The notes under the pieces are model-generated. The model saw only the letters and a list, made by a program, of their open reading frames with translations. It made no database searches and was not told the origin of the DNA. From Prototheca cutis (Eukaryota > Chlorophyta > Trebouxiophyceae > Chlorellales > Chlorellaceae), in contig BCIH01000003.1 in the NCBI GenBank assembly GCA_002897115.2, forward strand, positions 330,010 through 394,009: a stretch of DNA of 64,000 nucleotides, given 5' to 3'. A program made the translations under genes and the position numbers. Positions 29,117-37,000 of the stretch are shown here, in pieces (within the stretch, counting starts at the first letter, position 1; the number at the start of each line of letters is the position of its first letter).

Positions 29117-32100
29117 ATGGCGGACGAGTTTGAGCAGGCAGTGTTTTACAGCTTTGCGCAGCCCGGAGCGGCGCCGGCCGAGGTGCAGGCTGCGGCGAGG
29201 GCGGCGCTGGAAGCGGCTCGCGTGGGCCCCGGCGCATGGGAGCTGTGCCTGACGCACGTGCACAGCAGCGCCTATCCTGAGGTCCGGTTCTGGTGCCTGC
29301 AGACGCTGCATGCACTGGTGCGGGAACGGTACGAGGAGTTGACGCCCGAGCAGCGCGCGGCGCTGCGAGTCGCGCTGCTGGGCGCCGCACTCCGTGGCGA
29401 AGTCGGTCCTCAACCGTTCCTGCGGAACAAGCTGGCGCAAGTGCTGGCGGCGCTGGCGGGCCGCGAGTTCCCCGGCGCCTGGCCCGGATTTTTCGTGGAC
29501 TTGGCGTCGGGGCTGGGCGTCCCCGGCGGGGCTGGCGCCGCGGCGGNCGACGCGTTTTGCCGCGTGCTGGCGGCCATCGACGAAGACATCATCTCGCTGG
29601 ACGTGCCCCGTTCTGCTGCTGAGGCGCGGGCCGCGGCAGACTTCAAGGACGCCATGCGTGACACAGCGCTTGGCGACCTGGCGTCGGCCTGGACTAGTCT
29701 GCTAGCCGCCGCCCTCGCCGACGGTGGCAGTGGAGCCGGCACTGCTGCGACCACGCTGCGTGCCATCGAGCGATACGTGCACTGGATCGACATCGGCCTG
29801 GTCGTCAACCCGCAGTTCGTGCCGCTGCTGTTCAGGGCGCTGGGAGATGGCGACGCCGGGGTCCGAGCTGCCGCGGCCCGCGTCCTGGCCGCCATCGTAG
29901 CCAAGCGCATGGAGGCGCAGCCCAAGCTTCATCTCATCGGCCAGCTGGGCGTCGTGCCCGAGTGCGCGCGCTGGGCCTCGGGCCTGCCTGGCCGCCGGGC
30001 TGCTGGAAATGGTGAGGGCAACGGCGTTGTTGGCACGTCATCTGGTACCACTGGGGGAATTGCGGCTGCCAATACCAACAACGGTGGCAACAACTCCAAA
30101 GAGGAAGAAGAAGATCTCGCGCCAGAGTACGCGCGGCTGCTGGCATCGCTGGCGGTGGAGATTCTCGAGGCGTTGAAGAAGATTGAGAATGCGGTGCTGT
30201 CCATGGCGGCGGTGGGTCTGGCGGTGGACGAGGAGGCCGGACGCGAAGCTGCCGCCGGGACCGAGGCCGCCGGGGGCATGCTGGACGCCCTGTTCCCAGC
30301 AATTTTGACGACACTAGGGGATGCGGACGAAGAAGTCAGCGGCGCGGTGGTTCCCTTTTTGCTGTCCTATGTCGCCTGGCTCCGTGCCACCCAGCGCCGG
30401 GCGGGGAACGGTGGCGCTGACGCGTCGTCCCAGCCGTCGGGTGTGCGGCACGTGCCGGGTATCCTGGCGGCGCTAGGTTTGGCGGCGCGGTACCCGGCGG
30501 ATTCCGGCGTCGTGGCCGCCGAGCCCACTACAACGGCCGAACGGCGGACCAGCGACGAGGAAGAGGCCGCCATGGCCGACCGGCGCCAGGACCTGTTCAC
30601 GTTGCTGAAAAACTGCTACAAACTCGACCCGGGAAGTGCAGTCGGCTACGTGCGCGGAGCCCTGGCCGCGGCACTAGCATCGCCCGCCGCGCTGTGGCAG
30701 GACGCTGAGCTGGCGCTGGCGCTGCTGTACCAGCTGGGCGAGCCGGGGGCCGAGGAGCCGGCGCTCGCCGCGCTCGCCTGCGATGTCCTCCGCACGGGAC
30801 CCTGGACCTTGGCGTTTGCTGGTGCTGGCGGCAGCGCAAGAGGGGCAGGCCAAGCTGCCGCCGACGGCAGTAGCGTATCGCAGCCGGGCTCTCGGACACC
30901 CTCGCCGCCTCCCATGCCGCCCGGAGCTGCCCGCCCGCCGCCGCACCGGCTGGTGGCGTTGGGGTCGATGGAGTGTGCCGTGAGATTTTCACGTGTGCTG
31001 GGCTCGCCGCCGGCTTGCGATGCCGTGCTGCCGGCGGTGGCCGCGGCGTTCCTGGGCCCGGGGGGCCTGGGATCTCGCGATGGCGCGGTGGCGCGGCGGG
31101 GAGCCTACCTGTTTTGCCGGCTGGCCAAAGCCCTGCGGGGCCAGCTCAAGCCGCACGTGGGCGCGGTGCTTGGTGCGCTGGCACCGCTCCTCGCGCTGAT
31201 CGCGGCGACGCCCGCGGCAGAGNCCCCGGCCACCAAGGCCGCCCCCGGGCGCGCCGAAGGAGGCGTCAGCCTCACCGCCGTCGATGACAGGCTGTACGCA
31301 TTTGAAGCCGCGGGACTTTTGCTGGGCCTGGAAGACCTCCCCGCCACCGAGCAAGCCGCCTGGCTGGCGGCCATCGTCCAGCCCCTCGTCGTCCAGGTTG
31401 GTGGTGGAGAATGGGAAATTATTAGGCTGAGACGTCGTCGTATCACTGGTTGGGGTGGGTTGGCGTTTGTTTTATTGGGAAAGGAATGTGTGTGTTTTTG
31501 CCTGGAGAGACGCGCATGGCATTGCCAGCTGCCTCTTGCTCCCCGGGCGCCACCACCCCCAGCGGCACCAGTACCGGGGGAAATTCGGAGACCACCAGTG
31601 CAGTCCGGGCCCAGTTGCGGGTCGGCCATGTTGGTCAGCTGCAGGTCAACGGTTCGAGCCCGTTTGGGGCCACTCGGTTCTCAGGCCCCATAGCTCAGCT
31701 GGTTAGAGCGGCAGTCTAATACCAAAAACATTTTTTGTTTTTTCCCCCTTTTTTGGCGCCCCAACCAATAGGAATGAGCCNAGGGTGGTTGGTTGCTCAC
31801 CTGCCCTTTTCTCTCGCACAAAACCCTAAAAAACAGGTGGACAAGGCATTGGAGGCCGGGGAGGGTGGCGCGCCCACGCTGACGCCGGCGGGCACACTGG
31901 CCACGCCCGCGCTGCTGGCGCAGCAGGCGCTGGAGGGCGTGACGCGCGTGGCCAAGGGTTTCTCCCCCCGCCTGTGCACCGAGCTGCGCCCCGCGCTGGG
32001 CGCGGAATTCGGGGCCGCGCTGACTTTGGCGGCTCGCGTCCCTGCGCGGCTTCCCCGCCACCGCCCGCTGCGCGCGCGCCTGCTGTCCTTCCTGCACCGC

Positions 32101-33534
32101 ATGGTGGAGACGCTGGGCCCGGGGGCGCTGGGTCCCATGCCCGACGTGCTGCGGGCGCTGGTGCGCGGCGGCGCTGATGCGGGCGAGCTCGCCGACGCGC
32201 TGACCCTGCTGGTGCAGCTGGTGAGCCGGTTCAAGGACGCGATGGCACCACTGGTCGCGGAAGTGTTACCAGTTCTCGTGCCACGTGTGCATGCCGAACT
32301 GGGCCCGGGGTACGATTGGAGCGGCGCGCTGCCGCCTGAATCTCCCGCGGCTGCCGCCGCCGAAACCGCCCGCGAGCGCGACGAGCTCCAGCGCGCTTTC
32401 TTCGCGGGCCTGCAGTGCGTTGCCACCGCGGGACAGGGCGGGCACCTGCTCGCCGTCGACGGCGCAGGGCTTGACGCCACGCTGCGCGCGCTGTGCCAGG
32501 TATTGCTTTTGATTTGAACGGAGTTTTTGATTGAAATTCCCCAGTCGGGCAGATGTGTGATTTTTGGGCAAGGGCAAGCCGATGGACGTATGATAACGGC
32601 AAAAAGAGACTGATCATAAAGCCACGCGCCGCTCATGACCACCTCGACAGGCTGCAGGAATGCATCCGGAAGCGGCGGTGCGCAAGACGGCCATCCAGGT
32701 GTGTAGAGGTGTCGCTGCCTTGGGGAACGCTGCGAGCGATGCATTTCGACGGTTCTTTGTCAGACCGTGTGACCCCGGTAGAACTCTCCCCGGCCGACCG
32801 ACGCATTGCTGCAGACGTTGCACCGACTGCTGGCGGGCTGGCTGGAAGGTGGGGCAGCCCCAAACTCCCCAGCCATCCTGTCGTTTGCAGTTGAAGAGGT
32901 GCTTTGGATTCGTTCGTCTGGGCTGCCTGGAGTGTTTAGGGTTTGTACTGCTGTGATCGGGGGTGGGGCAGGTGGGTCCCCGGCCGCCTCCAACATATAC
33001 ACACAATCGCAAACCCAGGCCCCCCCCCCTAAACAATTCACAGTTTGCGGGGCAGGTGTGCCTGCAGTGCATGCTGACAGGTCCCGGGCGGCTGGACCCC
33101 CGTGACGCATCCTGCCTGGCCCTTCTCAGCGAAGCAGGCGCGGGACTGGCCATGGTTCGCGGTGTGGCTGGGCCCCGGCTGGACGCCCACCTTGCCAGGT
33201 GTGGCGCTGGATGGATGACGGTGGAGATGAAATTTGGGGTGCTTTCTGGGTAGGGCCCTTTGTCTTCAAGGTGTGTACGAGCTGAACAGCAGATTGGGTT
33301 GTGCAATGTGGATTGATGAACTGCAAATCTCGGCCAAGAGGACGGGGCCCCACCACAATGGAAGATTCCCCCGTGCCTTGCAGTGCGGTTTTCCCACAGC
33401 TGGGCTGGCCCGAGGGAGCCGGTCAGCAGCTGCTGGCTCTGGTCTCTGGCGGCAGCACCAAGCACATTCGGGACTTTTTGCGGGAAGCGCTGCAGCAGCC
33501 CTCTCAACCCAACGGCGCCAAACCTGCCCGATAG
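29117..33534 (+). CDS. XPOT: Exportin-T (tRNA nuclear export receptor)
   Basis: Karyopherin-beta family receptor (XPOT/LOS1/PAUSED) that carries mature tRNA out of the nucleus with Ran-GTP. The start 29117 lies in GCCACCATGGCGG, a strong Kozak context. Exons 29117-31396, 31837-32499, 32651-32698, 32815-32848, 33081-33198 and 33384-33534 are all phase-consistent and give 1,097 residues. Family hallmarks: MADEFEQAVFYSFAQPG, FWCLQTLHALVRERYEELTP, LRNKLAQVLAALAGREFPGAW, AAIDEDIISLDV, then HEAT-repeat helices throughout, HPEAAVRKTAIQTLHRLL, and the C-terminal TKHIRDFLREALQQ. Low-complexity Gly/Asn and Glu inserts lie around residues 295-335. The first exon carries 760 codons. Intron 1 (31397-31836) hosts a permuted tRNA gene on the same strand. 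Confidence 0.93.
31637..31721 (+). tRNA. Circularly permuted tRNA-Ile(AAU) gene in exportin-T intron 1
   Basis: The 3' half is 31637-31672, an 11-nt linker is 31673-31683, and the 5' half is 31684-31721. Reassembled as 5' half + 3' half, every canonical position is filled. Acceptor stem GGCCCCA / TGGGGCC (7 pairs) with discriminator A73. D stem GCTC / GAGC with an AGCTGGTTA loop. Anticodon stem GCAGT / GCTGC (four pairs plus one U-G) with loop CTAATA|A, anticodon AAT at 31718-31720. Variable AGGTC. T stem AACGG / CCGTT with loop TTCGAGC. The break falls between positions 37 and 38, the usual tRNA intron site. A box (TAGCTCAGCTGG) and B box (GGTTCGAGCCC) match consensus but are in reversed order. 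Flanking TTGG (31631-31634) can pair with CCAA (31722-31725), and ATG (31628-31630) with CAT (31729-31731), as a bulge-helix-bulge-like stem would. Identity agrees with eukaryotic tRNA-Ile(AAU). CCA is not encoded. Confidence 0.93.
31731..31754 (+). terminator. RNA polymerase III T-run terminator after the permuted tRNA
   Basis: T6 starting 9 nt after the end of the 5' half, followed by two further T6 runs (31738-31743 and 31749-31754). This is a standard Pol III stop and supports independent transcription of the intronic tRNA gene. Confidence 0.8.
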
Positions 33535-34082: not shown

Positions 34083-37000
34083 TCAGACCACCGGCGGCGC
34101 CGGGTCAAACCTGCAGATGCAGTCGTAGACCTTGCCGCCAAAGTGTCGTTCGGCCAGATGCGCGTTCTTGAGCATGGCCAGCTTGAGCGCGGCACACCCA
34201 AAGCGCGCGTGGTAGTTCGTGTGCAGCGCCCGGCCCATGCCCTCGATGATGACGAGGTCCGCGCCCTGGGCGGCTTCGGCGGCTTCGGCGGACACACGTG
34301 CCAGGTCCAGGCAGGGCGAGCCGTGGCCCGAAGCCACGATGTAGAGACGCGGGTCCTTCCACAGCGGAGGGTACGACTCGCCAAACATGCCCTTGCGCGC
34401 CGCGCTGCGAGGCGTGTCGGCCTCGCTCTCGAATTCGGGCGCGTGCGGCAGGAAGCGACGCGGCGCCTCCACGGCCTTGACCACCGCCAGGGCCTGGCTG
34501 GCGTGCCCCGTCGCGCCGCGTGCGATCGGAAGGTCCCCGGCCAGCGACGTGTTGCTGGGGCTCCCTGGGTGCATGTCCGGGGCATTGAGTGGGTGAGCGG
34601 GTGTTGACAGGGAGCTGCCACCGGGAGCGTCCTTGTAAGGTTGCCTTGGCAAACAAGCTATTGCTGGACCCATACATGATCACTTGGCAGTCAGCCATGA
34701 CTGTGTTGTCAACCAAAAGCACAGAAAAGCACTGGTCCATGGTCCTGATGCATGGCATGTTAACAACAAACACGGGTCGGCATGCAGCCTGCCCAGGGCA
34801 TGGCCATCGTCATGCAAAAGCCTGTGCAGTCATCGGTATGCACAAAGAGNGATAAAACAACAGAGCTCCCACCACAACCCTTACCGGGGACGGGGGGAAT
34901 GTGCCCCCCTGCAGCGGCGATGGTGGACACCGCGGCGTCACGCGAGGCGCGGATGACGGGGCACGCCTCGGCGGCGCGAGCCACGATGCCGCGCAGCTCC
35001 GAGGCCGTGACGTCGTTGATGGCAGGCAGCGAATTGGCCACGAGCACGACCTCCACCCCGCTGCGCAGGAATTCCCGGGCCAGGGGGATCATGCCCAGCA
35101 CGACGTCGGCGCCGGCGTTGTCCACAAAGATGAGCACACGCTTGAATGCGGGGCCTGATGGCGCTGCATGCCGTGCGTTTGTTTGGTTATATTTGTTTGT
35201 CAGAGGAGTGGTGGGTGGGTGGACAGGAGGTGCATGCATCCAGGCGGGGACTGGCGATGGAAAAGGACACTGCAAACACTGATACACGGCCGAGTGCCCC
35301 CACGTCATCGCAATTGCCTGCCACCTGCAATGCACAAACAAGGCAGACAGGCACAATCACACAACAACTGCCACTACCTTTGCCTTGGGCGTCGTCGACA
35401 TCGCCGTTCTGGGAGCCGGCGGCCTTGGCCGTCTTCCCGGGATCAAACCACGCTGCACTGAACTCGTCAAAGTCGTCCACGCGCCAGGGGCGGCGGCTGA
35501 GCTTGGTCCGGGCTTCGCGGTACATCTCCAGGATTGTTGCGTTTTGGTACATTTCCACGCATGCCTTGGCGCCCCAATCAAAGATGTTGGCCGCAAGGGC
35601 ACCCTGTGGAGTGTTGGGTTGTCAATGTTTGTACTCTCTTTTGAAGGGGAGGGGCGGGGGGGGCGGGGCGGGGAAGGGGGAGGGGGTGTCTTCCGAGAAA
35701 GGTTGGATCTCGTGGGGCCACGGGTAGAATCATGGGCATGGAAGGGGGAAGTGCACCTCAAAATATTACACAGGGAAAATGCAGTTCCCCCGATCCGTTA
35801 CACACAACCTCCCCATTCAATCACCTGGACCAGTGCGAGCAGGCGCTCCTGGGGCTCCAGGCTGTCCAGCTCTTGCAGCAGGTCTGGCAGCGCCTCCAGN
35901 GCTGCAGCGTTCTCACGCTCCTTGTCCACCTTGTAGACGTCGTCAAACCCAAACTCACGCAGGCACTCCTCCCGCAGCTCAAACAGGTCGCCGAGCCCCA
36001 GCTGGCCATAGGCCCCCGGCTCTGCCCGCAGCCGCCGGAGGTGCATGTCCAGCACGCTGCCAAAGGCCCCAGCACGGCGTATCGCCTCTGAGAAAGGAAG
36101 AAAACGGACTGCGTTTGTCGCCCTCTCGCCAGGGTAATTGTTATTATGATTTCGTGAGGGGAGTCATGAAAAGGGGAGTAGATTACCCTTCTCCGCCCCA
36201 CTGCGCACACCAGTCCGGCATCCAGGCTGCGACCCCACGTGCACGCGCATGCCATCCGTTCAAACAACCACCGCGCAACGCACCGGGCGAGTGTCCTTCG
36301 CTTGCGGCTGCCTTTTCCACGACGGTGGGGATGCCGTCCTGTAGTACCTTGACCCAGTACGCCATCTCCTCGCGGTCCTGATTGATGTCGATAGTACTGG
36401 ACATGTACTGCAGAGGGGGTGGAGTGTGGGCCGGGTGGGGAGGGGTCGCTGGGTTGTCCTCCAACGGGTTCTGTGTCTGGTTCATTGCACCTCCCACAAA
36501 AAATAAAAGCAACGCAGACCTTTGTGCTGGAGTCGAGGAGCGGGAATGGCCGGGAGGAAGGCGTGTACTGGAGAACGCCGACGTTCAGGCTGATGCGCGG
36601 CTGGCTGCCGGTGCTGGTCAGCAGCCCAGGCGCCTTTTCGACCCCGCTGCCGCGAATGGGCAGGCCAGGTTTTTCTATTGATACGGGTGGCAGGACAGGC
36701 CCGGCGGTTGGCGCCACCACAGCACCAAGTTCCTCCAGTCCGGGGACATCGGCCTGAAGGGCGTCCTGGGCCATGGAGTCTCGACTGACCTGACTGGATG
36801 CTTGGCTTGCTGTGCCTCGGTACAGCCCGGGATGCTGCATCGCCCTGCAGAATTATTAAATTTTTTGGTCATGTGAGCGAGGTGTTGGGGGCTATGTCAT
36901 GGGATTAGGAGAACAGAGACCAGGTCACGCCAGACCCCAAGCACGCCTGCCTGGCTGCCTGGCATTCGTGCGTCCCCACTGACCAGCTGATGCAGGCATC

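Follow-up and report, generated by a model that had tools for sequence, protein, structure and literature searches.

Introduction

Circularly permuted tRNA genes, in which the 3′ half of the tRNA is encoded upstream of the 5′ half, are already known as a kind. A review by Soma (PMC3978253) counted 34 of them in 2014, from six algae and one archaeon, and gives a linker range of 1–74 nt. In Cyanidioschyzon merolae, according to the same review, tRNAs of this order are expressed, aminoacylated, and matured through a circle. Permuted genes have also been reported from Auxenochlorella UTEX 250-A, a related trebouxiophyte genus whose tRNAscan-SE set was incomplete (Plant Cell 2025; PMC12636532, PMC12633428). 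Here, we describe a permuted tRNA-Ile(AAU) gene that lies in an intron of the exportin-T (XPOT) gene of Prototheca cutis (Trebouxiophyceae, Chlorellales), within a stretch of 64,000 nucleotides of contig BCIH01000003.1 (C3:330010-394009 in the contig numbering used here; hereafter the window, whose positions count from its first letter), and we compare it with the remainder of the genome (19,886,974 bases, 23 contigs). At a probability of roughly 0.93, we read the locus, from its sequence, as a genuine and functional nuclear gene for tRNA-Ile(AAU), circularly permuted and of type II. Of most interest is the genome-wide extent of the layout, which accounts for more than half of the tRNA genes found. 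An earlier sequence-only reading of the window had placed permuted genes in Cyanidioschyzon and prasinophytes; the review confirms both, although the known set is wider and takes in Auxenochlorella as well.

Structure and Detection of the Permuted tRNA-Ile(AAU) Gene

Window positions 31637–31721 of the plus strand hold a type II circularly permuted gene for tRNA-Ile(AAU), type II being the class with a 37/38 junction. From upstream to downstream, the gene consists of a 36-nt 3′ half (31637–31672, tRNA positions 38–73), an 11-nt linker between the mature 3′ and 5′ ends (31673–31683), and a 38-nt 5′ half (31684–31721, positions 1–37), an arrangement that the sequence-only reading had already given correctly. 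Its further claims, that the swapped halves make a full cloverleaf with seven acceptor pairs and that the split falls exactly at 37/38, are borne out by the stem counts, by ARAGORN, by the covariance model described below, and by the junction itself, since A37 ends the 5′ half and A38 begins the 3′ half. In the joined tRNA, Watson–Crick pairs occupy 7/7 positions of the acceptor stem, 5/5 of the T stem, and 4/4 of the D stem (scores of our own scanner), the anticodon stem has four pairs and one G-U, and both U33 and A37 are present.

The sequences that flank the two halves are equally well defined. The end of the leader (31628–31636) carries ATG (31628–31630) and TTGG (31631–31634), followed by TC up to the 3′ splice site; G31634 is leader base −3, the partner of C32 (31716) in the anticodon–intron (A-I) pair considered below. 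The trailer, CCAAAAACAT (31722–31731), contains CCAA (31722–31725) and CAT (31729–31731), and the pairing of these blocks with TTGG and ATG that had been proposed for the outer flanks is consistent with the predicted fold of the precursor (31627–31732), in which leader and trailer pair. The T6 run noted earlier after the 5′ half is present at 31731–31736 and is likely an RNA polymerase III (Pol III) terminator. The linker contains no T4, and no TATA/AT-box pattern was found for this gene.

Standard searches pass over the locus in its native order. ARAGORN reported no tRNA at 31637–31721 when given the window as it stands, and an Rfam search of the 64-kb window returned no tRNA match; with the halves joined, ARAGORN called tRNA-Ile(aat). 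For a covariance model (R2), 16 other permuted genes from this genome served as the training set, which contained no tRNA-Ile. Applied to the window, R2 gave a sole match at E ≤ 10, exactly at 31637–31721, with 51.2 bits and E = 8.6e-16, an E-value that is rough on account of a short calibration. The scanner likewise gave one match in the window, the same interval, and none in 1.46 Mb of dinucleotide-shuffled loci or in 292 kb of reversed loci, so that a permuted-gene search of this interval, which had been suggested as a check, recovers precisely the proposed gene. R2 also scores conventional tRNA genes weakly, at about 11–33 bits, because one half matches.

Genome-Wide Extent of the Permuted Layout

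At least 39 permuted tRNA genes were found in the genome, covering 27 isoacceptors and 15 amino acids, all of type II. Motif searches together with the scanner, run on fetched stretches (267 kb non-redundant), yielded 35 of them, and four further Gly GCC copies, missed by the scanner, were added by direct motif match. Both scanner and motif seek 37/38 junctions exclusively, and the census is limited to that type. All 77 places of the first motif search and all 19 of another were covered; in a search with 16 places, six were fetched, six were already in the set, and four, with three mismatches each, lie outside the census. The newly fetched places in further motif searches amount to 3 of 23, 3 of 11, 3 of 23, and 5 of at least 152, a few others overlapping loci already in the set. 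Since these places were examined in part, 39 is a lower bound. In seven of the fetched places (L119, L120, L121, L124, L129, L131, and L132), the scanner found no permuted gene. ARAGORN called all 39 joined genes with the expected anticodon and none of the 39 in native order; ordinary tRNA finders thus overlook permuted genes.

Conventional genes are fewer among those found. At least 17 scored over the Rfam cut-off, from 63 of 246 candidates scored, and they represent 10 isoacceptors: Lys CUU (two), Arg ACG (two), Phe, Arg CCU, Met, Leu CAG (three), Asp (three), Pro AGG (two), Pro CGG, and Leu CAA. The Met gene appears to be initiator-like, judging by its T loop. The scanner saw a candidate eighteenth gene, an intron-containing probable Leu UAG (L068/L096), which scores 19.4 bits, under the cut-off, and which ARAGORN reads otherwise; with or without it, the conventional total is 17–18 genes and 10–11 isoacceptors. 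A search with RF00005 at E ≤ 10 gave four further weak places (L096–L099), three of which overlap or adjoin permuted genes or this Leu UAG candidate, and a concatenated plant tRNA query, uninformative as a query, returned no candidates from the genome. No overlap was found between the permuted and the conventional isoacceptor lists. Neither form was found in this non-exhaustive search for Tyr, elongator Met, Val AAC/CAC, Ser AGA, Lys UUU, Glu UUC, and others.

Permutation is probably the standard layout of tRNA genes in this non-photosynthetic alga, in which case twelve amino acids would be decoded through circular precursors alone. These would be Ala, Gly, Glu, Gln, Asn, Thr, Ser, Ile, Val, His, Cys, and Trp. 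If so, permutation has spread through most of the tRNA set of one lineage and would be near-neutral or favoured there. The published account of Prototheca wickerhamii (PMC7941945) states that tRNAscan v1.4 detected every tRNA but tRNA-Sec, with 64 tRNA genes, and tabulates 71 for A. protothecoides. These figures sit poorly with a clade whose tRNA genes are mostly permuted, unless organelle genes or partial predictions were counted among them or P. wickerhamii is different.

Several smaller features of the set were recorded. The linkers of the 39 permuted genes measure 9–80 nt, none being shorter than 9 nt and 11 of the 39 being exactly 9 nt, which hints at a lower limit imposed by end processing. 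Permuted Gln CUG and Thr AGU genes stand close together in opposite directions (C10:42500-42845), and permuted Thr CGU and Asn GUU genes stand close together in the same direction (C18:44258-45689). A further tRNA-like sequence (L074 554-622, C12:216259-216327) has a 5-bp T arm and an anticodon that ARAGORN leaves undefined.

Source of tRNA-Ile(AAU) and Conservation between Paralogues

Searched at the DNA level with the joined tRNA-Ile, the genome returned four pieces: both halves of the gene in the window and both halves of a second permuted tRNA-Ile(AAU) copy at C8:147895-147978. At the sensitivity of that search, no contiguous tRNA-Ile(AAU) was found anywhere in the genome, an outcome that answers the question, raised by the sequence-only reading, of whether the window copy is the only one. 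The two permuted copies are the sole source found for reading AUU and AUC, and the permuted route should therefore be working. The two genes share 73 of 74 mature bases, the one that differs being a base of the D loop, and 5 of 11 linker positions; their outer flanks are at background, with 16 of 52 positions shared upstream and 14 of 45 downstream. The same pattern extends to 19 within-family pairs, in which the mature halves are 99% identical, the linkers 53%, and the outer flanks 33–41%. The mature parts have been kept while their surroundings diverged, which indicates that selection holds the tRNA halves and not the flanks.

These observations bear directly on the possibility that the locus is a pseudogene or rearranged relic, a dead copy whose halves were swapped by rearrangement in a cell that relies on another gene. 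The permuted order does separate and reverse the A and B boxes, and tRNA fragments do occur in this genome, for example an orphan 3′ half of tRNA-Phe located ahead of a permuted Glu gene. A dead copy should be accompanied by a decayed cloverleaf or by functional copies elsewhere; here, all stems pair, the bases are kept between copies in spite of diverged flanks, the terminator and the A-I pair are retained, and the other tRNA-Ile(AAU) found is itself permuted. Together with the recurrence of the same layout in 39 genes covering 27 isoacceptors, this makes the pseudogene explanation very unlikely, and a working permuted gene remains the preferred reading. The orphan fragment itself (L066 676-767, minus strand, on C8, upstream of the permuted Glu CUC gene) is near-identical to the 3′ half of tRNA-Phe, and no matching 5′ half was seen in its vicinity; it is possibly a relic or an intermediate of tRNA-gene rearrangement.

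Two other origins were set aside. An organelle origin of the window tRNA was rejected on its AAU anticodon, which we take to be of the nuclear type of tRNA-Ile. An assembly artefact was rejected because the same layout recurs at 39 loci, on 16 contigs or fewer.

Transcription Signals

A run of T4 or longer starts 1–20 nt after the 5′ half in 39/39 genes and lies wholly inside the first 20 nt in 35/39, as against 5.0% of random 20-mers. T4 occurs within 40 nt upstream in 7/39 genes and inside the linker in a single gene (Arg UCG). Upstream signals are less uniform: leaders contain 47–58% AT in 10-nt blocks, compared with 39% for the window, and TATA/AT-box patterns are present in only 6/39 genes.

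The placement of the terminators also helps to judge whether the locus could belong to a split tRNA, whose halves are matured in trans with halves of other loci and not from one permuted transcript. The halves are indeed separate sequence blocks, and the orphan tRNA-Phe 3′ half would fit such a system. Split genes have their halves at separate loci, as separate transcription units; the halves of the window gene are 11 nt apart, and matching halves stand 9–80 nt apart and in the same order in 39/39 genes. A T4 run follows the 5′ half in every gene, as described above, and interrupts just one linker, and leader base −3 pairs with position 32 of its own locus. A split tRNA is consequently very improbable, and a single permuted transcript accounts better for the layout.

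Junction Recognition and the Splicing Endonuclease

In the human TSEN endonuclease, 3′-site cleavage is described as requiring the A-I pair, which joins tRNA position 32, at −6 from the 5′ site, to the base at −3 from the 3′ site (PMC8479045). The TSEN structure is reported to hold an A-I stem of 4 bp together with a bulge of 3 nt (PMC10539383). In the permuted genes of P. cutis, the leader occupies the place of the 3′ end of an intron. The window gene offers 4-bp helix options for UUGG, a 3-nt UCA bulge, and a C32:G(−3) pair, the last of which is found in both Ile(AAU) genes; its UUGG can pair either with positions 32–35 (CUAA, with one G-U) or with CCAA of the trailer. Across the set, with one gene taken per isoacceptor, 16 of 27 have a pair between position 32 and leader base −3 (15–17 depending on the copy chosen), against 9.2 by permutation. 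The signal has z = 3.7 at −3 and less than 2 at the other eleven positions, and none of 5000 permutations reaches it at any of the 12. The A-I pair thus covaries across the permuted set, yet it is a tendency and not a rule.

The conventional intron-containing genes of P. cutis (Asp, Pro AGG, and Pro CGG) are also interrupted at 37/38. Base −3 and position 32 are paired in Asp and Pro(AGG) and are T:G in Pro(CGG). Their halves stand in the normal order around an intron of 30–48 nt; the permuted genes instead have an open intron, with the linker connecting the mature ends.

Several results count against the reading as a working permuted gene or against a strict rule of recognition. The 32:−3 pair is missing from 19 of the 39 permuted genes. 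A fixed 4-bp helix between leader and trailer is not above chance across isoacceptors (2334/20000 permutations), and a strict helix of this kind was accordingly rejected as a general rule. Leader–trailer duplex energy is weakly better than in shuffles (Stouffer −2.48; 5/27 at p < 0.05) and weakly better than in swaps (376/20000 and 1325/20000). The unconstrained fold of the window precursor, at −37.9 kcal/mol and z = −2.6, contains the leader–trailer pairing and the acceptor stem and lacks the D and T arms; the precursor of the C8 copy folds at z = −2.3.

A separate observation concerns the neighbouring leader base. A purine stands at −4 in 19/19 genes without the 32:−3 pair and in 11/20 of the others (Fisher p = 0.0012, with paralogues that are not independent), and by isoacceptor in 12/12 without the pair. 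Such a purine, able to pair with U33, possibly marks a second recognition register, a suggestion made post hoc.

The enzyme itself also appears to be encoded. A search of the genome with PF01974 gave two places, C3:762183-762398 and C7:717349-717564, whose best relatives in the PDB are Sen2 (1.9e-13) and Sen34 (8.6e-11) chains. The catalytic residues of the endonuclease are named as Tyr, His, and Lys in PMC10539383; the presumed equivalents are identical in the Sen34 alignment, and the Sen2 piece stops before the Lys. Judged by these matches, both catalytic subunits of the splicing endonuclease, Sen2-like and Sen34-like, are likely present.

Proposed Maturation Route

A general route of maturation for the window gene can be outlined by analogy. 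A short transcript would consist of leader, 3′ half, linker, 5′ half, and trailer, and would end at the T6 run. The anticodon stem would close the folded cloverleaf, leaving the leader and trailer to serve as the ends of an opened intron. The Sen2/Sen34 endonuclease would then cleave after A37 and before A38, and a ligase would join position 37 to position 38, producing a circle from which removal of the linker and addition of CCA would yield the linear tRNA-Ile. Transcription by Pol III, the circle, ligation, and end processing are all modelled on permuted genes that have been studied and would proceed here in the same way. The sequence-only reading had proposed that a trebouxiophyte-type alga uses this route. 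The presence of the permuted gene, its fit to the endonuclease, and the failure to find a contiguous copy support that proposal, but P. cutis would not be the first trebouxiophyte case, since Auxenochlorella is already described.

The Exportin-T Host Gene and Genomic Position

The window tRNA gene lies, as first proposed, in an intron of exportin-T, and the two genes are on the same strand. The upstream exon (29117–31396, plus strand) matches Pfam Xpo1 (1.3e-26) and Exportin-T (8.8e-21), and its start agrees with that of relative P0001. The intron (31397–31836, plus strand) is 440 nt long, has GT..AG ends, and is in phase 0. The downstream exon (31837–32499, plus strand), whose 3′ end was set by splice-site reading, matches Exportin-T at 1.3e-5, below the curated cut-off, and its frame covers model positions 359–488. 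In an alignment of the joined exons with 10 relatives, nine crossed the junction with no gap at it, and one (P0007) was gapped there. The closest protein relative is that of Auxenochlorella, with 58% identity across the whole query. A single N letter is present at window position 31781, in this intron and outside the tRNA gene; such letters are present at other places in the assembly as well.

Exportin-T is the tRNA export receptor, and the sequence-only reading had raised a feedback link between the two genes. Such regulatory coupling, a tie formed by the intronic tRNA between exportin-T expression and either tRNA processing or Pol III traffic, would be in keeping with the shared strand and the intronic position. 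The second tRNA-Ile(AAU) copy, however, sits between PCNA (plus strand) and a PP2C gene (minus strand). In a Pfam scan of selected frames beside seven other permuted genes, three of the seven adjoin apparent gene ends with clear matches (eIF3 zeta-type, PEPCK, and citrate synthase), the permuted Ser UGA gene, antisense to the Sel1-repeat frames on either side of it, is possibly intronic, and the remaining three gave no clear answer. Introns are also plentiful: by the figures given for P. wickerhamii (365 genes per Mb, with 4.1 introns each and a mean of 163 bp; PMC7941945), they would make up about a quarter of the genome. With introns so plentiful and with the C8 copy and apparently others outside them, an intronic position requires no special explanation, and the match between a tRNA gene and a tRNA-export gene was noticed post hoc. 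Coupling is thus highly improbable and the proposed feedback unsupported; the location of the working permuted gene in exportin-T is most likely incidental and matters little in itself.

Downstream of exportin-T, window positions 34083–36163 of the minus strand carry parts of an ARMT1-like damage-control phosphatase domain (PF01937) in open frames that probably belong to one multi-exon gene.

Comparison with Known Permuted tRNA Genes

The closest counterparts of the P. cutis genes are those of type II in prasinophytes (Ostreococcus, Micromonas) and in the nucleomorph of Bigelowiella natans, which the review describes with the same 3′-before-5′ order, 37/38 junction, short linker, and nuclear-type tRNA (PMC3978253). 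They differ in that Table 1 of the review lists no permuted Ile(AAU), and in having 2–6 genes per genome, as against at least 39 here. The permuted order is also shared with the archaeon Thermofilum pendens, which differs by a 59/60 junction, a further intron, and a total of two genes (PMC3978253). In C. merolae, permuted genes are a minority, 11 of 43 tRNA genes, and the review lists four junction types (PMC3978253), whereas P. cutis has one type, to which most of the tRNA genes found belong. In the listed literature, surveyed by title and abstract opening and outside subscription journals, no title beyond the Auxenochlorella work concerned a trebouxiophyte genome.

A set of this size makes several questions testable. 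The origin of permuted genes can be approached through paralogues with identical mature parts and differing linkers and flanks. The other questions concern the Pol III start with swapped A and B boxes, the reading of an open junction by the endonuclease, and any advantage of circular precursors. Auxenochlorella is reported to be manipulable by homologous recombination. The extent of permutation in P. cutis exceeds the published counts that are known here, among which that of Auxenochlorella does not figure. Set against the 2014 review total of 34 over all organisms, the at least 39 genes reported here mean that a single genome exceeds that total.

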